This document shows positions 33,018 to 45,424 of a stretch of DNA of 61,105 bases, piece by piece. The DNA comes from Chitinophagaceae bacterium (GTDB taxonomy: Bacteria > Bacteroidota > Bacteroidia > Chitinophagales > UBA10324): NCBI GenBank assembly GCA_947474435.1, contig CANJII010000020.1, forward strand, positions 1-61,105, written 5' to 3'. The position numbers were made by a program, and so were the translations under genes. The stretch's first letter is position 1; the number at the start of each line of letters is the position of its first letter. The notes under the pieces were generated by a model. It was not told where the DNA came from, made no database searches, and saw only the letters and a list, made by a program, of their open reading frames with translations.

Positions 33018-34685
33018 ATGCGATACAAAAACGAAAAAAAGGATTTAAAACTTTATGCAGTTGCAGGCACCCAAACTGTATTACTGACTTTTGAAATTGC
33101 AAAATCTAAAATCAACAAAAAAAAATTTCTTGGGTTTGATATAAGCCGTAAAGACAAGAATGGAAAAATAATTTCATTAAATGGCTCAAAACATTTCGCC
33201 TCTCTGTTAATCGACAAAAACATTGAGGATGAAAAAATAAAAAAACGTTCGCTCATTCAATCCTTCTTATGGAAAGATTACTATGCTGATCCGGGGCAAA
33301 CTTATACATACACAATAAAAGCTGTTTGTGGTTCGCCAATAAATAATAAAGCTGCATTTGAGGCGAGCATAAAAGTTAAAACCGAAAAACTGCACGACGG
33401 CAAACATTCAGTTTACTTTAACTACGGAGTAACCGGTTCGCAGGCCTATGCAAAAAATTTTAATAATCAACCGCTCAGTAAATTAGCAGGGAAGAAAAAA
33501 GAAGATGCACTTGCTTTTTTAGGAAGAGAATTGTGGCAGGAAGGATTAATAAAATATCTGCAACAGGCGAAAAATAAAAATCATCAATTGTATTGCGCGT
33601 TTTATGAATTTCAGTATCCTGATTTTCTAAAAGAAATAAAGGCAGCTAAAGACAGAGGAGTGAATGTGCAGATTGTTTACAGTGCAATGCGTGACCAGAA
33701 TGAAAAAAATGTTGCAGCAATAAATGCGGAAGGACTTCAATCTATTTGCCATCCACGAACTATTGCCAATCAGCCGCATAATAAGTTCATGGTGTTTTGC
33801 GAAAATAATATTCCGAAGCAAGTGTGGACCGGTTCAACAAACATTACACAAGCCGGAATATTCGGACAGAGCAATACCGGTCACTGGATAAAGGACGCCG
33901 ACATAGCAAAAAAATATTTATCCTACTGGAATTTATTGAAAGATAATCCAACTATGAAGTCTTTATCTGAGGTTTCAGAAAACCAGCAACCCGATACTGA
34001 TTTAACAAAACTGAAGGATGGTGTGTATTTATTTCTCAGCCCGCGACATTCAGCCACACATTTATCAAACTATGCAAACCTCATTGACAATGCAAAAGAA
34101 ATGGTGTGCATGGTTTTCCCTTTTAACATTGATGATGTATTTAAAAAAGTTTACAGAAAGGATAAAGACTACCTGCGCTTTTTACTTTTTGAAAAGAGTG
34201 CACAGGCACAAAGTGTTAAAAGCAACGACATTGATTTAAAAGTTACGGGTGGTGCCATTTATTCAAGTGAAAAAAATCAGCAATGGGTAAAAGAAGTATC
34301 ATCAAAATCAGTAGCCAAGGCAGGCATACTGTATGTGCACAATAAATTTTTCATTATTGATGCTTTAGGAAAAGATCCGATTGTAGTGAGCGGGTCAGCC
34401 AATTTTAGTAAACCATCCATAACAAGCAATGATGAAAACTCAATGCTGATAAAAGGCGATGTGAGAGTGGCTGATATTTATTTAACAGAATTCAGCCGAA
34501 TGTTCGAACATTTCTGGCCGCGCTATTTAGAAAAATATGGCAACAAGAAAACGAAAACAAAAAAAGGATTTCAAAATCCACTGGATGAAAGCTACACCTG
34601 GTTCAAAGAATATTACAACAAAGCAAAATTCGTGTGCAAAAGAAAAAACATGTTTATGAAAATGCAGGGTGCGAAGCAGGGGTGA
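33018..34685 (+). CDS. Phospholipase D-like (HKD) protein with one altered HKD motif
   Basis: 555 aa, no signal peptide. An N-terminal beta-rich region (~1-125, FN3-like: YADPGQTYTYTIKAVCG) precedes two PLD half-domains. The first motif HNKFMVFC (HxKxxxxC) has Cys where Asp is expected, followed by VWTGSTNIT. The second HNKFFIID (HxKxxxxD) is complete and followed by VVSGSANFS. PLD enzymes hydrolyse phosphodiesters using both histidines, so activity is still possible. The substrate may be nucleic acid or lipid. A Lys-rich C-terminus follows. It could also be a defence nuclease, but no partner genes support that. Confidence 0.85.
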   Translation: MRYKNEKKDLKLYAVAGTQTVLLTFEIAKSKINKKKFLGFDISRKDKNGKIISLNGSKHFASLLIDKNIEDEKIKKRSLIQSFLWKDYYADPGQTYTYTIKAVCGSPINNKAAFEASIKVKTEKLHDGKHSVYFNYGVTGSQAYAKNFNNQPLSKLAGKKKEDALAFLGRELWQEGLIKYLQQAKNKNHQLYCAFYEFQYPDFLKEIKAAKDRGVNVQIVYSAMRDQNEKNVAAINAEGLQSICHPRTIANQPHNKFMVFCENNIPKQVWTGSTNITQAGIFGQSNTGHWIKDADIAKKYLSYWNLLKDNPTMKSLSEVSENQQPDTDLTKLKDGVYLFLSPRHSATHLSNYANLIDNAKEMVCMVFPFNIDDVFKKVYRKDKDYLRFLLFEKSAQAQSVKSNDIDLKVTGGAIYSSEKNQQWVKEVSSKSVAKAGILYVHNKFFIIDALGKDPIVVSGSANFSKPSITSNDENSMLIKGDVRVADIYLTEFSRMFEHFWPRYLEKYGNKKTKTKKGFQNPLDESYTWFKEYYNKAKFVCKRKNMFMKMQGAKQG

Positions 34686-36166: not shown

Positions 36167-39100
36167 ATGAAAAAAATAACTTGCTTTTCATTTTTCATTT
36201 TTCACTTTTCATTTTTCAGTTCGGCTCAATCATTTGATGCCAACAGGCCACCCAATGAATTCAGAAGTAAAAGCAATCCATTGTATTGGAAAAATAAAAT
36301 GCCCGATGCAGCCTACTGGCAGCAGGATGTGTATTATAAAATTGATGCAACCATTGATGAAGACTCAGATATAATTTCAGGAAACGAAACGCTGAAGTAC
36401 TGGAACAATTCACCGGACACTTTAACTTATGTGTACTTCCATTTGTATCAGAACATGACATTAAAAGGCGGACCGCAAGCCAACCTTGTAAGGAATAATA
36501 AGGTAAATGAAAAATTCGGGAAGTATGAAGCACAAGGTTTGGGTTGCAAAATGGAAAGTATAAAATCAAATGGTGTTGAGTTAAAAACTGAATGGGATTA
36601 TACATTGGTGAAAGTTTATTTACCAAAAGCATTGTTGCCAAACGACAGTACTTCATTTGATATAATATTTAAAACATACTGGGATAAAGGAAGCGAGCGC
36701 AGACGGTTTAAAGAACTGAATTCGTGGGGCTACTCGCAATACGATGGCGTGCACTGGTATCCGCGCATTTGTGTGTATGACCGCAAGTTTGGCTGGGACA
36801 CCAATCAGCATTTAGGAAAGGAATTTTATGGCGACTTTGGAACTTTTGAAGTGAGTTTGAATTTTGCCAAACATTTTATTGTGGAAGCAACCGGAGCATT
36901 GCAAAATGAAAAAGAGGTGATGCCTGATGACCTGAGAGCTAAACTGGATATAAAAAACTTTTTCAACAAGGCCTGGAATTCTGAACCATCAGTTATTATT
37001 CCTTATGTAAAAGGAGAAAGAAAATTATGGAAGTATTACGCAGAAAATGTGCATGACTTTTCTTTTACTGCTGACCCGACTTATCGCATTGGAGAAACAA
37101 TATGTAAACCCGCAGGATACACCGGAGAAGGAATCAGAATCATCGCCATGTGTCGCGAACCTCATTGTGCAGGATGGAGAACAGTAACACAATTCGGGGC
37201 ATTGGTAGTAAAAACTTATTCAAAAGATTTCGGAATGTATGCATGGCCCAAACTTGTAATATGTGATGCAGAAGATGGAATGGAATACAATATGCTGAAT
37301 TTAGATGGGGGATGGGAACCAAACAATTATGATTTGATTGCACACGAAGCTGGTCATGAATGGTTTTATGGAATGGTGGGAAGCAATGAAACTTACAGAG
37401 CATCATTGGATGAAGGCTTCACACAGTTTATTGAATCGTGGTGCCTGCCGAAGATAACAGGTGATTACATGCCACTCGGATATCAGAAAAAAGGATATTA
37501 CAATCATTTTAAAGATTCATTATTGGTTCGTGATGGCGAAGTGTATCTCGGTTATATGAATGATGCTGTTAAGAATGCGGATGATTTGCTCAATACGCAC
37601 AGCGATATGTTTAATGGAGCGTTGGCACATGGCGGAGGGTACCGTCATGTTTATTTTAAGACTGCTACTATGCTCTGGAATTTGCAATATGTGTTGGGCG
37701 ATTCGTTGTTCAGCAATTCGATGAAACATTATTTCAATCAATGGAAATTCTGTCATCCGTATTTTGAAGATTTTCGGAACAGTATCATACAATACACGCA
37801 TGTTGATTTGAATTGGTTTTTTGATCAGTGGATGGAAACCACAAAAAATATTGATTACAAAGTATGCAGTGTAAAAAAAACAAAGGGCATTCCGGCTATG
37901 TATGACATTACATTCAAACGAAAAGCAAGAATGCAAATGCCAATTGATTTTTCAGTTGAAACAAAGGGTGGCAAAACACAACTCTACACTGTACCGAATA
38001 CCTGGTTTGCAAAATCGTCTGATGCAACTATACTTCCGAAATGGTATGGATGGGATAAATTAAATCCGACTTACACGGCAACCATTGCTTCTTCATCTAA
38101 AATAAAAAATATAACGATTGACCCGAGCAATCGGTTGGCTGATGTTTACATGCCGAACAATAGTTGGAAGTGTTCAACCAAGTGGAAATTTGATTCGCAG
38201 ATTTCAAACCCTAATGACTGGAAGCATTATGTAATAAAATGGCGACCTGATGTTTGGTACAATGCTGTTGATGGAATTAAACCCGGCATGCACTTCGAAG
38301 GAGATTACATGAAATGGCGTCATGTTTTTGATTTGAATGTATGGTGGAATTCAAAATTGCTGCAGCAACAAACTTTTGATTATGGATTATCTGAAAATCA
38401 ATTGAATAATATTTTTCCAGTTTCATTTACATTCGATTATAAAGACAACATTAAACTTTTTCCGAAATATTTTAATTGGTATTTAAGTGGAGGAAACAAT
38501 GAAGGATTAACAAGAGGAAAAATTGGAATGGAAATTTTGACCGGAAAGAATGATGTTTTCAATATTTTCCTTCAAGGAATGAAAAGAAATGCGAATGGAG
38601 AATTTTCATATATAGCAGAATATCAAGATAGCCAGAACAAGTACTTATTATTCGAAGATGAATGGTCGAAAAGTAATTGGAATAACACAGTGAACATTGA
38701 TTGGAAACACAACTTCAATTACATTGGAGGAAGCAGTAGTTTGAAAATGAATTTGAGAAATTCATCACTTTTTAATAGTTACCAAAGAAAAAACGCCGTT
38801 AGTCCACCAAGTCTGGAAACAAATTATTCATGGTTGAATGCTGAACTCATCAATCACAATAAGTTTTGGAAATTTGACATTGATACCCGTGTGTTCGCAC
38901 AATACACAACTGGAACAATTTCTGAAGAAAGTAAATTGTGGTTGAGCGGAAATAATCCTGAAAGAATGATGGATGATAAATTCACTCGCAGTGTCGGATA
39001 CTTTCCTGCTGCGTGGACTCAGTTTGGTTCCGGCATTAATCATTTTCAGGACGGTGGTGGATTAAATTTGCGTGGCTATGCCGGATACCTGGCACCTGAA

Positions 39101-39472
39101 AGTATCAATGGAGAAATTGTTGCTTCATACAAAGGAAACAGCGGGGCTTCTGTTAGTGCTGAAGTTCAGTTCGACCGATTGTTTTCACTAACACCAAAAC
39201 TTACACGAAACTCATTCAAGTTTGAGCCCTATCTTTTTGCCGATGCTGGTTTAATCTCAATAAAAACTAATAAAGATTTTGAATACCTGATGCCGATGCG
39301 TGCTGATGCCGGACTCGGTTGCTTGCTCACGATTAAACGGTTTTTCAAATTAGAAGAAATAAAAGTATTTACCATTCGCGCTGATTTTCCATTCTTTGTT
39401 TCATCGCTTCCATATGAAGATACAAACTACATTGATTTCAGGTGGATGATTGGAATAGGTAAGAGTTTTTAA
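36167..39472 (+). CDS. M1 family metallopeptidase fused to a C-terminal outer-membrane beta-barrel
   Basis: 1101 aa from ATG 36167 (an in-frame upstream start would give an extra 11 residues before the signal peptide). Signal peptide 1-21 (FHFSFFSSAQ). The M1 domain covers about 60-560: zinc motif HEAGH at 393-397, third ligand Glu416 in SLDEGFTQF. A short beta-domain at about 570-640 follows. Residues about 660-1101 alternate like beta-strands and carry LRGY at 968-971 in a Gly-rich turn, resembling the Omp85/TpsB L6 (V/L)RG(F/Y) motif about 130 residues before the end, and end in a terminal Phe (WMIGIGKSF). A peptidase held at the outer membrane is inferred. Confidence 0.85.
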   Translation: MKKITCFSFFIFHFSFFSSAQSFDANRPPNEFRSKSNPLYWKNKMPDAAYWQQDVYYKIDATIDEDSDIISGNETLKYWNNSPDTLTYVYFHLYQNMTLKGGPQANLVRNNKVNEKFGKYEAQGLGCKMESIKSNGVELKTEWDYTLVKVYLPKALLPNDSTSFDIIFKTYWDKGSERRRFKELNSWGYSQYDGVHWYPRICVYDRKFGWDTNQHLGKEFYGDFGTFEVSLNFAKHFIVEATGALQNEKEVMPDDLRAKLDIKNFFNKAWNSEPSVIIPYVKGERKLWKYYAENVHDFSFTADPTYRIGETICKPAGYTGEGIRIIAMCREPHCAGWRTVTQFGALVVKTYSKDFGMYAWPKLVICDAEDGMEYNMLNLDGGWEPNNYDLIAHEAGHEWFYGMVGSNETYRASLDEGFTQFIESWCLPKITGDYMPLGYQKKGYYNHFKDSLLVRDGEVYLGYMNDAVKNADDLLNTHSDMFNGALAHGGGYRHVYFKTATMLWNLQYVLGDSLFSNSMKHYFNQWKFCHPYFEDFRNSIIQYTHVDLNWFFDQWMETTKNIDYKVCSVKKTKGIPAMYDITFKRKARMQMPIDFSVETKGGKTQLYTVPNTWFAKSSDATILPKWYGWDKLNPTYTATIASSSKIKNITIDPSNRLADVYMPNNSWKCSTKWKFDSQISNPNDWKHYVIKWRPDVWYNAVDGIKPGMHFEGDYMKWRHVFDLNVWWNSKLLQQQTFDYGLSENQLNNIFPVSFTFDYKDNIKLFPKYFNWYLSGGNNEGLTRGKIGMEILTGKNDVFNIFLQGMKRNANGEFSYIAEYQDSQNKYLLFEDEWSKSNWNNTVNIDWKHNFNYIGGSSSLKMNLRNSSLFNSYQRKNAVSPPSLETNYSWLNAELINHNKFWKFDIDTRVFAQYTTGTISEESKLWLSGNNPERMMDDKFTRSVGYFPAAWTQFGSGINHFQDGGGLNLRGYAGYLAPESINGEIVASYKGNSGASVSAEVQFDRLFSLTPKLTRNSFKFEPYLFADAGLISIKTNKDFEYLMPMRADAGLGCLLTIKRFFKLEEIKVFTIRADFPFFVSSLPYEDTNYIDFRWMIGIGKSF

Positions 39473-39494: not shown

Positions 39495-40727
39495 ATGACA
39501 TTAATCCTTAAGAATATTGCGTTGCATTTTTTTATAGTGAATTTATTTATTATGATTTCTTCAGTTTGTGTTTTTGCTCAATCACCGTTGTTAAATCAAA
39601 CAAATGAACAGGAAGAAAATTATATTTCTTCACCTTCACATTTTAAAAATAACAGCAGGCAGTTTGTTTCAGAATGGTATAACTACGGCCGAACAATTAA
39701 GAATGGAGGAGGCAATTGCCAGTATTATAAAAATTATTTATTCCCGGATTCAACGGTGAAAGCAAATTTCTCAAACGATGTTTCAGGGGTATGGAAGCAT
39801 TCGTATGGTGAAGTATGCGACCCTTCATCGCCAGCCTTAGATAGTAATACACTCATTGGTGCTTTTGCATCCTATACACTTGATTCCATTGCTCTTCAAT
39901 ATAAATATTTTCGTTTTCAAAATCAGGCTCCTGATACATTGGTGTTTCAGATTTATAAAAATGACCGGATAGATTTTTTTGAAAATCCTTTTAACGACTC
40001 AAGAAGCATGGCGCGTGTCAATTACAATTACCTGCTTCGCAAAGGAGATACTTCAAGTTATGAATTCACAGTTTTGCTTAGTAATAATGACACATCAACC
40101 ATAAATCAAAGCACAATGTATCTTCCGGTTGGTCTTAGTATCAATGCAGGACAAAAAGTTGCCGCTGTGGTTACTTACTATCCCGGAAATGCATTTTCAA
40201 TAGGTGATACAATAGATCCGAACATGCAGGCAGTTAACCGTATTAATGCTTTTGCAATTTATGATTTCAAAGACTTTGATAATACTTACAATAAATATTT
40301 TTTTAACAACGGATTACTTGCAACCAACGAGGTGAGATATAATTATGACACTCTGGGATGGAATGGAAAATTTATTCCGGGAACGGCATACAGCAACGGA
40401 TATTATCATTTAGATATGAGTTTCAAACTATCAAGTAATTATGTTGGATTGAATAATTTAATGACAAGCGATATAAAATTTAATTTGTTTCCATCAGTGG
40501 TTTCTGAAAATGAAAATTCAATACTGCAAATTCAAAGCAATAAGAATCAGAATGCAGAAATAAAAATCGTTGATCTTTCCGGTAAAAATATTTATGAATT
40601 CAGCACAGCTCTTCAAACAGGAACTACTAAAATTTCATTGCCTGTTAATTATTTTAATTCAGGGATATACCTCGTTATAGTGAGCGTGAACGGAATGAAG
40701 GGAATCAAAAAGCTGATAAAAATTTAA
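39495..40727 (+). CDS. T9SS cargo protein with type A sorting domain
   Basis: 410 aa. Signal peptide about 1-29 (SSVCVFAQ). The body (~30-325) is not recognised; it is predicted beta-rich and soluble. The C-terminal ~85 residues form a type A T9SS sorting domain: FNLFPSVVSENENSILQIQS, a KIVDLSGKNIYEF strand and the closing SGIYLVIVSVNGMKGIKKL. It lies 22 bases after the M1-barrel gene, so may be cotranscribed with it. Confidence 0.85.
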   Translation: MTLILKNIALHFFIVNLFIMISSVCVFAQSPLLNQTNEQEENYISSPSHFKNNSRQFVSEWYNYGRTIKNGGGNCQYYKNYLFPDSTVKANFSNDVSGVWKHSYGEVCDPSSPALDSNTLIGAFASYTLDSIALQYKYFRFQNQAPDTLVFQIYKNDRIDFFENPFNDSRSMARVNYNYLLRKGDTSSYEFTVLLSNNDTSTINQSTMYLPVGLSINAGQKVAAVVTYYPGNAFSIGDTIDPNMQAVNRINAFAIYDFKDFDNTYNKYFFNNGLLATNEVRYNYDTLGWNGKFIPGTAYSNGYYHLDMSFKLSSNYVGLNNLMTSDIKFNLFPSVVSENENSILQIQSNKNQNAEIKIVDLSGKNIYEFSTALQTGTTKISLPVNYFNSGIYLVIVSVNGMKGIKKLIKI

Positions 40728-40859
40728 TCCTTTATCATAATATAAAAGATGCAGAAACAACTAAGTGCCTGTCGCTGTTTTTTTTGAATAGGTAAGCAAA
40801 ACGAAATCTTCGTATTTGTTGTCAACCTTTTTTTCTACTTTTAGTCAATCAATTTTCAG

Positions 40860-43800
40860 ATGAAGAACATTTTTAAAATAGTATTATTCATCCAGTTCAT
40901 TTTCGCATTTCAGATATCTGCTCATGAAGGGGTTCCTGGTGTTAGTCAGCAACTGCATTTCCGCGAAAACAAAAACCAGTGGGATTCAAGAATAAACTTC
41001 ATCGGATTTTTAAATGGCGGTTGTATTTATTTAGAAAATAACACCATCACTTTTAAATTATTTGACGGCAACGATTTACAAAAACTGCACCCGCGAAAAG
41101 ATCCGGATGTAACACTTCACGGGCATATTTATAAAATGCATTTTATCGATGCTAATCCGAATCCTGTAATTGTAAAAGAATCGCCTTCTCCTGAATACTA
41201 TAATTATTTTATTGGTAACGATCCTTCCAGGTGGGCAAGTGAAGTGAAACAATTTCAATCCATCACTTATTTAAACCTGTATCCGTATATTGATTTTAAA
41301 GTATATGGAATGGGATTGACCATGAAGTATGATTTTATCGTTCATGCCGGAGGAAATGTAAACGATATAAAAATTTCTTATGAAGGAACTGATGAAATGA
41401 ATGTTTCAAACAGTTGTGTTCACATTAAAACTTCGGTCGGAGAAATTATTGAAGCTCCACCATTCTCTTATCAAAAAACAGATTGGAATATAGCGCAGGT
41501 AAAATGCAAGTACGAACTGAACAATAATTTATTGAAATTTAAACTGATAGAAAATTATAATTCGTCAAAAGATTTAATCATTGATCCAACACTTGTATTC
41601 TCAACTTATACAGGTTCAACAGCCGATAACTTTGGATACACAGCAACTTATGACGATGCCGGAAATTTATACATGGGTGGTTATGTAAATACAGTTCAGT
41701 TCGGTGGTGCTTATCCAACAACTGCAGGTGCATTTCAGATAGCCTTTGGAGGCGGCACCAGTACAAGCGGAATTCAGTTCCCGTGCGATATGGGTATTAC
41801 TAAATTCAACGCTACAGGAACCGCCTTAATCTATTCAACATATCTCGGCGGAAACGATAATGAAACACCGCATAGTTTATTCGTTAATACCAACAATCAA
41901 CTTTGTGTTTATGGAAGAACCTATTCACCCAATTTTCCGGTAACAGCAGGAGCTTATGACCCAACATATAATGGTGATGCTGACATGTCAGTAACAGTTT
42001 TTAATTTAAATGGAACTGCCTTAATTGGTTCAACATACATAGGTGGAACCGGAATGGATGGTGTAAATTATGATCCGACAGAATACTTACTTGGCAATCT
42101 GAAATTTAATTATGGTGATGATGCACGGGGCGAAATAATATGTGACCTTGCAAATAATATTTATGTTGGTTCTTGTACCTACTCTTCAAATTTTCCTGTT
42201 ACACCCGGCGCATTTCAAACAGCTTATGGTGGAATGCAGGATGGTTGTGTATTCAAATTGAATGCAAACTGCACAACACTCATTTACTCCTCTTATCTTG
42301 GCGGGAATCAGGATGATGCTTGTTATTCCGTTGCTTTAAAACTGGATAACAGTGTGTATGCAACGGGGGGGACTATGAGTACAAATTTCCCAACTATAGC
42401 CGGCAGTGTGAATACCGTTTACATGGGTGGATTGTTTGATGGTTTTTTATGTCATATTAATCCGTCGGGAACAACTTTATTAAGCTCAACATATTTAGGA
42501 ACACCTGATGCCGACCAATCTTACAATGTAAAATTGGATGAGGCAGAAGATGTTTTTGTTGTAGGATGTTCGGAAGGAGATTTCCCGGTTTCGGCAGGAG
42601 TTTACAGTAATCCGAACAGCGGACAGTTTATTGCTAAACTGGATCCGAATCTTTCAACTATAATTTTATCAACTGTTTTTGGTAATGGGAATGGGCTCAC
42701 CAATATTTCTCCAACCGCTTTTTTAGTTGATACCTGTGGAAATATTTATGTGTGTGGGTGGGGAACAAATCAGGCCGGCACATTTGGTCATGCAACTGAT
42801 ATAACCAATATGCCATTAACAGCAGATGCTTTTCAAAGCACAACTGATGGAACCGATTTTTATATCATCGCTTTCAGTAGTGATGCGCAACAACTTTTGT
42901 ATGGAACTTATTTCGGGGGCAATGGTGGAATAGAACATGTTGATGGTGGCACCAGCCGGTTCGACCGAAGAGGAATAATTTATGAAGCAATTTGTGCTGG
43001 ATGTGGTGGAAACTCTTTGACACCAACTACTCCCGGAGTTTGGAGCAATACAAACAACAGTCTGAACTGCAACGAACTTGGCTTCAAAATGGAACTCGAT
43101 TTATTTGAAGTAACAGCACAGGCACTTGCAAATCCTGCTGCGACAGGGTGTACACCTTTAACTGTTGATTTTGAAAACAACAGTGTAAATGCCACCTGGT
43201 ATTTCTGGGATTTTGGAACGGCCAACGCCGGAGATACCTCACATTTATTTGAACCTACATTTACTTTTACAGTTCCGGGCACCTACACAATTATGCTGAT
43301 TGCTGATAATCCTTCAAGTTGTTTCGGCGCTGATACTGCTTATACAACAGTTATAGTTCTGAATACAAATGTGAATGCAAATTTTAATACAGTTGTAACT
43401 GATTTATGCGATTCAGTAATCGTAAATTTTTCAGGAACAAGTTCAGGGGCATCCACCCAATTCTTCTGGACATTTGGTGATGGGTCAATTGGTACAGGTC
43501 AAAACATTACACATGTATATTACAACGACAGTGTAGGAGTTATAACTTACACCATCACACTTATAATTTATGATTCAACTGCATGCAATCCGGGCGATAC
43601 CGTTTCGCAAACAATAACTGTTTCTCCTAAAGTTGAAGCCGGAATAGGTAATCCCGATTTTATTGGATGTGCGCCACTGTTTTGCAGTTTCTTTTATGTT
43701 GGTCAATCACAAACATCTGTTGTTTGGGATTTTGGTGATGGTACGCCAACTTCAAATTCTCAAAATCCATTGCATACTTATTTAAATCCCGGAGTTTATA

Positions 43801-44396
43801 CTGTAACAGTTATTGGTTTTAATCCTGTTGCCTGTAACCTTACTGATACTGCCACAAGTACTGTTACTGTTTTTCCACCACCACCCGTTCCATCTTTCAC
43901 TGCTTCTCCAACAACAATCATGTTGTTTGAATCAATCGCATTTACCAATTTAACAATAAATGGAATTAATTATTTATGGGATTTTGGCGATGGAATGAAT
44001 TCAACCGAATTCAGCCCCACTCATGCCTACGAAGATGGAGGAGAGTTTACAGTCTGTTTATCAGTAAACACTTCTACTACCTGTCCTGATTCGGTATGTA
44101 AAAAAGTAATTGTTTTATTACCACAGGCAGTTGATGTTCCAAATGCATTCTCACCGAATGGTGATGGATTTAATGATATACTTTATGTACGCGGTCAAGG
44201 AATTACCGATTTTATTTTCAAAGTATTTAATCGATGGGGTGAAAAAGTTTTTGAAACCAATGACCTAAGTATTGGGTGGGATGGAATATATAAAACCAAA
44301 CCACAAGACATGGATGTATATGTATGGGAATTAAATGCAACACTTGAAGATGGTGCCAGAGTGGTGCGTAGTGGAAATGTTTCGTTATTAAGATAA
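40860..44396 (+). CDS. Giant secreted SBBP/PKD protein with gliding-type (T9SS type B) C-terminus
   Basis: 1178 aa. Signal peptide 1-21. An N-terminal DUF7948-like domain (~28-245) with LHFRENKNQWDSRINFIG and SRWASEVKQF precedes SBBP beta-propeller repeats (~245-740) with recurrent SSTYLGG and NFPVT motifs. Four PKD domains (~750-1095) each contain WDFG(D/T) and xHxY-like patterns. The gliding C-terminal domain starts at DVPNAFSPNGDGFNDILYV and includes FNRWGEKVFET. Type B domains need a PorP/SprF-type partner, and one is encoded 8 bases downstream. Probably a surface-exposed adhesin-like structure. Confidence 0.93.
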   Translation: MKNIFKIVLFIQFIFAFQISAHEGVPGVSQQLHFRENKNQWDSRINFIGFLNGGCIYLENNTITFKLFDGNDLQKLHPRKDPDVTLHGHIYKMHFIDANPNPVIVKESPSPEYYNYFIGNDPSRWASEVKQFQSITYLNLYPYIDFKVYGMGLTMKYDFIVHAGGNVNDIKISYEGTDEMNVSNSCVHIKTSVGEIIEAPPFSYQKTDWNIAQVKCKYELNNNLLKFKLIENYNSSKDLIIDPTLVFSTYTGSTADNFGYTATYDDAGNLYMGGYVNTVQFGGAYPTTAGAFQIAFGGGTSTSGIQFPCDMGITKFNATGTALIYSTYLGGNDNETPHSLFVNTNNQLCVYGRTYSPNFPVTAGAYDPTYNGDADMSVTVFNLNGTALIGSTYIGGTGMDGVNYDPTEYLLGNLKFNYGDDARGEIICDLANNIYVGSCTYSSNFPVTPGAFQTAYGGMQDGCVFKLNANCTTLIYSSYLGGNQDDACYSVALKLDNSVYATGGTMSTNFPTIAGSVNTVYMGGLFDGFLCHINPSGTTLLSSTYLGTPDADQSYNVKLDEAEDVFVVGCSEGDFPVSAGVYSNPNSGQFIAKLDPNLSTIILSTVFGNGNGLTNISPTAFLVDTCGNIYVCGWGTNQAGTFGHATDITNMPLTADAFQSTTDGTDFYIIAFSSDAQQLLYGTYFGGNGGIEHVDGGTSRFDRRGIIYEAICAGCGGNSLTPTTPGVWSNTNNSLNCNELGFKMELDLFEVTAQALANPAATGCTPLTVDFENNSVNATWYFWDFGTANAGDTSHLFEPTFTFTVPGTYTIMLIADNPSSCFGADTAYTTVIVLNTNVNANFNTVVTDLCDSVIVNFSGTSSGASTQFFWTFGDGSIGTGQNITHVYYNDSVGVITYTITLIIYDSTACNPGDTVSQTITVSPKVEAGIGNPDFIGCAPLFCSFFYVGQSQTSVVWDFGDGTPTSNSQNPLHTYLNPGVYTVTVIGFNPVACNLTDTATSTVTVFPPPPVPSFTASPTTIMLFESIAFTNLTINGINYLWDFGDGMNSTEFSPTHAYEDGGEFTVCLSVNTSTTCPDSVCKKVIVLLPQAVDVPNAFSPNGDGFNDILYVRGQGITDFIFKVFNRWGEKVFETNDLSIGWDGIYKTKPQDMDVYVWELNATLEDGARVVRSGNVSLLR

Positions 44397-44404
44397 ATGA
44401 ACAA

Positions 44405-45424
44405 ATGAAAATGAAAAATTTTTACCTGTCAGTTTTCCTTTTATTCATGAGTTTAATGCTGAAAGCACAAGACATTCATTTCTCGCAATACTATGCTTCG
44501 CCAATGACTGTTAATCCGGCTTACACCGGCATGTTCAATGGAACTTATCGTGTGGGAGCAAACTATCGCAATCAATGGGCAAGTGTTTCAGTGCCCTATA
44601 AAACTTTTGCAGCTTATGCTGATTACGGATTGCTGCATCGGCCATTTAACCGGTATTTTTTTGGTGCAGGTTTATCAATGGTAAATGATGTGGCAGGTGA
44701 TGGTGATCTTTCTGTGACAAAACTCACTGGCAACGGAGCTTTTCACTATGCAGTTGATGGCGCCAGAAACTATTATCTCTCTATTGGTTTACAGGCATCT
44801 TATATTCAAAAAAAAATTGACTGGAATAAATTGTACTTCGACCGTCAGTGGGACGATGTGAATTTTAACCGTAGTCGCCCGAGTTATGAAGCAGGCTATT
44901 CTCCGGCATTTCATTATTTTGATTTTCAGCTGGGAGCTTTGTATTCGTTTGTTGTGAATGCAAAAGTTGGTGGTTATGTGTCAGCTTCTGTTTCGCATGC
45001 ACCCCGACCTAAAGATTCCTTTTATGGTGCTGAATATAAGTTAGGAGGCAGACCTCAATTAAGTGCCGGAGTAAATGCTGATATTACAAAAGCAATTACA
45101 GTGTATCCAAGTTTCTATTACCAGAATCAAAAGAATGCATCAGAGTTACTGACGGGATTAATGGTTAGTTACAAACTTGCACCCGATGAAGAAGAAAGCA
45201 ATAAAATTTATATGGGAACTTACATTCGTTTAAAGGATGCATGGTATCCGGTTGTGGGATATGAGTTTTCAAGAATCAGAGTATTACTTAATTACGATAT
45301 TAATTATTCAGAACTGCAACCTGCCAGTCAGGGACGGGGTGCTTTAGAAATTTCAATCCAGTACATTGGCAATTTTGGAAAGCCGCCAAAAGGAATTATT
45401 GATATGCCTTGTCCGAGATTTTAA
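44405..45424 (+). CDS. PorP/SprF family type IX secretion protein
   Basis: 339 aa. Signal peptide about 1-22 (FMSLMLKAQ). The start QDIHFSQYYASPMTVNPAYTGMF-like block (DIHFSQYYASPMTVNPAY) is the PorP/SprF hallmark, with NYRNQWASV. The remainder is an outer-membrane barrel. SprF-type proteins bind type B sorting domains and are needed to secrete or anchor the neighbouring cargo. It is in an operon with the SBBP/PKD protein, so it is most likely that protein's dedicated partner. Confidence 0.94.
   Translation: MKMKNFYLSVFLLFMSLMLKAQDIHFSQYYASPMTVNPAYTGMFNGTYRVGANYRNQWASVSVPYKTFAAYADYGLLHRPFNRYFFGAGLSMVNDVAGDGDLSVTKLTGNGAFHYAVDGARNYYLSIGLQASYIQKKIDWNKLYFDRQWDDVNFNRSRPSYEAGYSPAFHYFDFQLGALYSFVVNAKVGGYVSASVSHAPRPKDSFYGAEYKLGGRPQLSAGVNADITKAITVYPSFYYQNQKNASELLTGLMVSYKLAPDEEESNKIYMGTYIRLKDAWYPVVGYEFSRIRVLLNYDINYSELQPASQGRGALEISIQYIGNFGKPPKGIIDMPCPRF

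Follow-up and report, generated by a model that had tools for sequence, protein, structure and literature searches.

The window (i.e., the whole 61,105-nucleotide stretch of DNA analysed here) contains an open frame at positions 36167..39472 of the forward strand (ATG at 36167, stop at 39472), on which the features of its product described below also lie. Its product of 1,101 amino acids is predicted to join an M1 metallopeptidase (about residues 40-660; 36284..38146) to a C-terminal 16-strand Omp85-type barrel (residues 687-1101; 38225..39469). By-eye reading of the sequence places a probable Sec signal peptide at about residues 1-21 (36167..36229), the end of which shows no lipobox Cys, and the AlphaFold2 model has a low-confidence helix at residues 2-16. 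From 80 homologous loci, 70 were kept and aligned with the window protein, to which they are 42-80% identical (71 rows in all); the 10 loci left out (L046, L060, L070, L079, L093, L096, L101, L103, L106, and L108) gave partial or irregular-length matches. The M1 half and the barrel half lie within one open frame in all 70 homologues kept, which speaks against an assembly artefact. The closest named homologue-bearing genomes belong to Bacteroidota and are mostly metagenome assembled; of the nearest five, four carry the label Chitinophagaceae or Chitinophaga, so the window most likely derives from this branch of the phylum.

The N-terminal half is a standard M1 peptidase, as the first-pass annotation had proposed. 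Peptidase_M1 (PF01433) was the only Pfam family found on the window protein (E 4.9e-13; 49.6 bits, the cut-off being 27.7). The zinc-binding motif HEAGH (residues 393-397; 37343..37357) and the third zinc ligand, Glu416 (37412..37414; 19 residues past the second His of HExxH), are intact, and H393, E394, H397, and E416 are each identical in 71 of 71 aligned sequences, as is Y496. The tetrapeptide GMEY (residues 371-374; 37277..37288) is equally conserved (G371 is invariant; M372, E373, and Y374 occur in 71/71) and occupies what we take to be the position of the M1 exopeptidase motif, the usual form of which is GxMEN. The whole-protein AlphaFold2 model, built from the 71-row alignment (mean pLDDT 86; pTM 0.84), was matched by VIA-align to the M1 structure 1z1w (Z 28.5; rmsd 2.9; 463 residues aligned) over model residues 53-767, a range that strays into the first barrel strands. 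VIA-align matches to the two-domain M1 enzyme of D. radiodurans stop at model residues 563-659, and M1 homologues align within residues 24-666 only (best 10 of 25 plasmid records). The strands at residues 564-651 were taken as the M1 beta-sandwich. Other sequence searches with the fusion protein returned an aminopeptidase N model of NCBIfam, which was the only match and a weak one (26 bits; cut-off 591), and no match in PHROGs.

No Pfam family was found in the last 440 residues of the window protein, and searches of PDB sequences gave nothing with either the whole protein or the barrel profile; fold comparison alone gave matches. A separate AlphaFold2 job on residues 660-1101 produced a barrel with a mean pLDDT of 85 and a pTM of 0.84, and the same 16 long strands appear in the full and barrel-only models to within about 1 residue. 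In the numbering of the barrel job (add 659 for the full protein), they span residues 28-40, 44-55, 59-68, 93-102, 110-119, 122-133, 137-148, and 179-193 (strands 1 to 8) and residues 196-207, 227-241, 244-258, 333-342, 358-374, 386-397, 409-419, and 435-438 (strands 9 to 16). This count was made from the DSSP string and excludes four short strand elements (11-16, before the barrel; 318-321 and 324-327, in loop L6; and 380-382, after strand 13), and the fold comparison is the basis for regarding the barrel as closed. Strand 16 is also short in the full model (residues 1094-1097), which, if the model is correct, could leave a weak seam. Foldseek placed TamA first (E 3.8e-8) and BamA third (2.6e-7) among 105 chains at E values up to 0.001; query TM-scores were modest (0.40-0.51) and rmsd values were large (7-13 A) in the 50 matches listed. 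In a VIA-align comparison, which was a second look at the Foldseek list and not a free search, the barrel matched BamA of D. radiodurans (Z 20.9; rmsd 4.4; 302 aligned), BamA of F. johnsoniae (Z 19.3; rmsd 5.2; 307 aligned), FhaC (Z 18.2; rmsd 5.0; 283 aligned), and TamA (Z 17.9; rmsd 5.0; 275 aligned). Among the matches listed, 49 of 50 PDB entries are named BamA/BAM, Sam, TamA, or FhaC, and the title of the remaining entry is uninformative. The reading of the last ~440 residues as an outer-membrane barrel is thus borne out by 16 modelled strands and by similarity to the BamA, TamA, and FhaC folds; the Ig-like or propeller domain that was named as the alternative did not appear. Inside/outside alternation of hydrophobicity failed to separate the barrel strands from 14 M1 strands (2.8 versus 2.4).

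The barrel carries two Omp85 signatures. Strands 11 and 12 are joined by loop L6 (residues 918-991; 38918..39139), which has 74 residues here and 73-80 across the 71 sequences and contains a (V/I)RG(Y/F)-type lid motif, LRGY (residues 968-971; 39068..39079), within GGGLNLRGYAGY. The motif sits 130 residues before the C-terminus, which agrees with the first-pass placement of LRGY in an L6 position. R969 is present in 71/71 sequences, and the motif overall reads [LVIM]R[GA][YFM], with L in 54, V in 9, I in 5, and M in 3 sequences at the first position (i.e., V or I in only 14/71), G in 67 and A in 4 at the third, and Y in 65, F in 4, and M in 2 at the fourth. The second signature, overlooked in the first reading, is FxDxG (FADAG; residues 1024-1028; 39236-39250), which lies on strand 13 of the AlphaFold2 models (residues 1017-1033; 39215..39265) and has F1024, D1026, and G1028 in 71/71 sequences. 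According to PMC4490367 and PMC5422565, Omp85 barrels bear (V/I)RG(Y/F) on L6 and (F/G)xDxG on strand 13, the pair is joined through an Arg-Asp salt bridge, and the strand-13 motif takes the F form in BamA and TamA and the G form in FhaC. The fusion barrel has the F form, as in BamA/TamA, and both superfamily motifs are at the positions given in PMC4490367; F. johnsoniae BamA likewise reads LRGY (PMC12611786). The terminal Phe that had been pointed out in the window protein is shared by 70 of the 71 rows, and the exception (L068) is a row that is one residue short, its next codon being TGG.

Profile comparison also linked the barrel to Omp85 proteins. With hhalign, the barrel family matched a set of 25 Bacteroidota Omp85 proteins at a probability of 93% (P 2.8e-7), in an alignment that pairs LRGY with RGY and FxDAG with FxDAG. 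The controls gave 0.7% (PorP/SprF), 0.3% (reversed), and 1.2% (a FadL-like profile that is thin, being built from no more than five sequences, of which three were hits below the cut-off of PF03349). The probability was 49% against 18 TamA/TamL-like sequences alone, and six BamA-like sequences alone gave no match (0.2%), perhaps because that template profile is thin (Neff 2.2); both labels were assigned on the basis of frame length and the C-terminal residues. The Pfam Omp85 model PF01103 did not match the window protein or any of the 71 barrel sequences when each was scanned singly, and only three weak, unrelated Pfam names were obtained for these barrels (E 0.026 or worse). PF01103 did match fusion orthologues in 2 of 30 genomes below threshold (20.8 and 18.4 bits against 24). 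In the window's own genome, it matched two frames and missed an 835-aa frame with POTRA repeats, which is likely BamA, so the lack of a match to the window protein carries little weight. Pfam detected no POTRA domain in the fusion protein at E values up to 1, and PF07244 (POTRA) was not found at the fusion locus in any of the seven genomes searched; we therefore did not file the fusion in the BamA, TamA/TamL, FhaC, or PlpD subfamilies. Structure prediction, the layout of the motifs, and profile comparison thus all support the proposal that an M1 peptidase is fused to an Omp85-like barrel, and the identification of the gene product as a real Omp85-barrel M1 peptidase of a non-POTRA kind is well supported.

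The barrel profile was detected at E values up to 0.01 in 40 of 60 related genomes, where the frames of G010 and G042 are short or split. Across the phylum, it was detected at E values up to 0.001 in 63 of 296 genomes; some of these hits are weak and partial and fall within frames of about 1,000 residues. Among the 20 loci listed from this phylum-wide search, 18 lie in frames of only 403-459 residues. The 17 separate barrels examined with their flanks (16 flanks) have [LI]RGY in 17/17 and FxDxG in 13/17, and no HExxH occurs within their frames. All 16 flanks contain Nudix-like and GreA-like cluster members, with the families confirmed on one locus. The separate barrel of ~415 residues matched no Pfam family in four examples and no NCBIfam family in two, and separate barrels scored 67% in hhalign against the same 25 Omp85 proteins. 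A further 19 proteins are paralogous M1 fusions of 999-1,096 residues that share the barrel, one of them on contig 27 of the window's genome; their barrels gave hhalign probabilities of 96.5% with the window's family and 76% with the 25 Omp85 proteins. A tree was built from 83 barrels, comprising 25 separate ones, 19 paralogues, 3 others, and a subset of 36 of the 71 fused rows. The separate barrels cluster together in it (support 100/100), beside fused barrels. With the midpoint root on the paralogue side and some branches long, this topology suggests that the separate barrels arose by loss of the peptidase half. All 13 of the family f43 genomes taken have a separate barrel together with an M1 enzyme of 624-690 aa that aligns to the end of the query at residue 659, and the three family f41 genomes that carry a separate barrel have their best M1 match within a longer frame, of 1,013-1,071 aa. 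Only a weak "Rosetta stone" link joins the separate barrel to a separate M1 enzyme, since genomes without the barrel (e.g., G031, G044, and G056) also have such M1 enzymes.

In outer-membrane barrels, the connections between strands are long on the outside and short on the periplasmic side. Sixteen strands place both barrel ends on one side of the membrane, and the connections away from the M1 side average 22.3 residues, compared with 6.1 for the near-side turns (one-sided Mann-Whitney test with 8 far-side loops and 7 near-side turns, P 0.035). The three connections most variable in length (L2, L4, and L7) are all on the far side, where two of the eight loops (L1 and L3, with 3 and 2 residues) are as short as periplasmic turns. 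Because the modelled chain enters strand 1 of 16 from the M1 side and the longer, more variable loops lie opposite, the peptidase is probably on the periplasmic side of the outer membrane. Our preferred reading, to which we assign a probability of roughly three in four, is a zinc M1 peptidase that a POTRA-less 16-strand Omp85 barrel anchors at the membrane's inner face. After Sec export, the barrel would insert into the outer membrane, and the peptidase would hang from its inner face with both barrel ends in the periplasm; the model and strand parity would put the M1 beta-sandwich where other Omp85 proteins carry POTRA domains. LRGY on L6 and FxDxG on strand 13 could form the lid lock that their motifs predict, keeping the barrel closed, and the enzyme may trim peptides imported across the outer membrane or the remnants of failed envelope proteins.

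The periplasmic placement bears on an earlier suggestion that the enzyme is surface tethered or self-exported, i.e., that the M1 domain is exposed at the cell surface or exported through its own barrel like a type Vd autotransporter. Many hydrolases are displayed on the surface in Bacteroidota, and such a location would be in keeping with this habit, but strand parity and loop lengths place the M1 domain in the periplasm, and the invariant lid-lock residues also argue against passage. PlpD, which had been offered as the precedent for export and was once taken as the archetypal type Vd secretion protein, turns the other way: on re-examination, its patatin domain remained periplasmic, as shown by protease access and disulfide bonding, and the argument made there that export would require unfolding without ATP applies to a domain of >600 residues (PMC11116518). 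We therefore regard surface exposure or export as improbable. A different origin for the C-terminal domain, in which a barrel of another outer-membrane family converged on an Omp85-like form, appears highly improbable; it would account for the missing above-cut-off Pfam family for the window barrel, the weak and unrelated names for the 71 barrels, and the lack of PDB sequence matches to the barrel profile, yet it leaves unexplained 16 strands with L6 between strands 11 and 12 and LRGY and FxDxG in order, matches listed in the PDB that all bear Omp85 names apart from one uninformative title, and the negative profile controls.

A further reading is that the barrel does more than anchor. It could be a working insertase, translocase, or conduit, with the M1 domain processing a polypeptide as it passes through, and the invariance of residues in the two Omp85 motifs, the BamA/TamA-type form of FxDxG on strand 13, the short modelled strand 16, and the occurrence of the barrel alone in other Bacteroidota are all compatible with such activity. 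Set against this are the absence of a POTRA domain, the example of PlpD, an Omp85 barrel whose enzyme stays periplasmic, and the paralogous M1 fusions, only 3/19 of which retain the pattern [VILM]RG[YF], so that an anchor alone may suffice there. We consider a working conduit unlikely. A related and still rather unlikely proposal is that barrel and enzyme form a working pair, in which the barrel exchanged POTRA for a protease that it feeds with polypeptides from its lumen or from the strand 1/16 seam, the partner being a separate M1 enzyme where the barrel is separate; if true, the pair would be an outer-membrane quality-control or peptide-uptake protease. Relative to both, the periplasmic anchor remains our preferred interpretation.

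Solved M1 aminopeptidases are, to our knowledge, soluble or anchored by a single helix. The fusion shares the M1 fold and zinc site with tricorn factor F3 (1z1w), ERAP/IRAP, and LTA4H, and differs in having the barrel where M1 aminopeptidases have a C-terminal helical domain and GMEY in place of their usual GxMEN. With BamA, TamA/TamL, and FhaC, it shares the barrel fold, L6, and the lid-lock motifs; these proteins carry POTRA domains, whereas the fusion carries an M1 enzyme and a barrel sequence too distant for the PF01103 cut-off. The closest parallel in arrangement is PlpD/PL-Omp85 (formerly type Vd), in which an N-terminal enzyme and a C-terminal 16-strand Omp85 barrel form one chain and the enzyme lies on the periplasmic side (demonstrated for PlpD, PMC11116518; predicted for the fusion). 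PlpD has a patatin lipase and POTRA, whereas the fusion has a zinc M1 peptidase, no POTRA that could be found, and, with Peptidase_M1 as its sole Pfam domain, no patatin-like domain of the kind that defines PL-Omp85. Heinz and Lithgow described, in the main text of PMC4104836, ten Omp85 subfamilies (including patatin, PF00149, and WD40 types) and accepted alternative non-POTRA N-terminal architectures. Their "Metallo" Omp85 links a metal-enzyme domain to an Omp85 barrel as the fusion does, except that the domain is PF00149 (calcineurin-like phosphoesterase in Pfam) and not an M1 peptidase, and no word starting with "peptidase" occurs in that main text. In PMC12045153 and PMC13067283, the passages that mention "peptidase" concern signal peptidases only. 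An M1-Omp85 fusion is not named in Pfam or NCBIfam, and none appears among the titles and abstract openings listed in a search that covered open-access papers.

Omp85 proteins insert proteins into, or move them across, outer membranes, and enzyme-bearing kinds are few. A widespread, conserved, POTRA-less version with a peptidase adds an architecture that the Pfam Omp85 model misses, and would join PlpD as a second system in which to test whether Omp85 barrels serve as anchors for periplasmic enzymes. Because the same barrel occurs both fused and on its own, its own role can also be asked about. Neighbouring genes were not informative as clues to function, and scans for tRNAs and for promoters and terminators gave nothing of use. 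The gene directly downstream in the window (39495-40727) has a homologue at 6 of the 70 homologue loci, directly downstream in 5 of them; dprA is divergent and adjacent at 7/70, and other neighbour clusters reach 15/70 at most in flanks of up to 6 kb, which were often shorter.

The genome from which the window derives carries another M1 metallopeptidase fusion, on contig 27 (L160:260-3406), whose C-terminal domain is of the same kind as that of the fusion protein in the window. In this second protein, NRGG occupies the position at which LRGY is expected, and the other barrel motif is retained as FVDFG. In the same genome, a frame of 835 aa (contig 34, 18537-19529) has four POTRA matches and is likely to be BamA. 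A search of the genome with the Pfam Omp85 model (PF01103) at an E value of 0.001 did not find this frame.

Two further proteins may represent other types of enzyme-Omp85 fusions. The first is a 1,026-aa protein from contig 167 of the related genome G014 (L161:85-3165), which includes a PD40 propeller (PF07676) and, as noted by eye, an HELVH motif near the N terminus. Its C-terminal part scored 24.2 bits against PF01103 (cut-off, 24 bits) in the profile search of the genome, and PF01103 was absent from the hmmscan results for the protein at an E value of 0.01. This protein may be another Omp85 fusion with a peptidase-like part, in which case it would belong to the "WD40" type. The C terminus of the second protein (L163:2745-5870) is an Omp85 domain (PF01103; E value of 2.5e-9), and the protein is possibly a member of the "Metallo" subfamily, although PF00149 was not among its Pfam matches. 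By eye only, its N-terminal part resembles a phosphoesterase. The naming of PF00149 differs between sources: it is a calcineurin-like phosphoesterase in Pfam, whereas the 2014 survey (PMC4104836) refers to the PF00149 subfamily as a metalloprotease.

In the window, the three genes downstream of the fusion (39495-45424) encode a type IX sorting-domain protein, a DUF7948/PKD/CHU_C protein, and a PorP/SprF protein; comparison of the 70 homologue loci revealed that this gene order recurs mainly in the closest relatives. A protein with two phospholipase D (PLD)-like stretches (PF13091) is encoded at 33018-34685, and no homologue of it was detected among the flanks of the 70 compared loci. At 12 of these loci (e.g., L045), a gene of approximately 322 aa lies immediately upstream of the fusion, with a median gap of 50 bases, and at 13 of the 70 a gene of approximately 284 aa is located approximately 1 kb upstream. 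By eye, these genes are YihY/ribonuclease BN-like and NadC-like, respectively.

At L192 (4027-9226), the separate barrel gene has an acetate kinase gene on one side and Nudix and GreA genes on the other, and a caspase-domain (PF00656) protein is encoded next but one to the barrel gene. A cluster of proteins resembling this caspase-domain protein in size occurs downstream of the separate barrel at 13 of the 16 loci.
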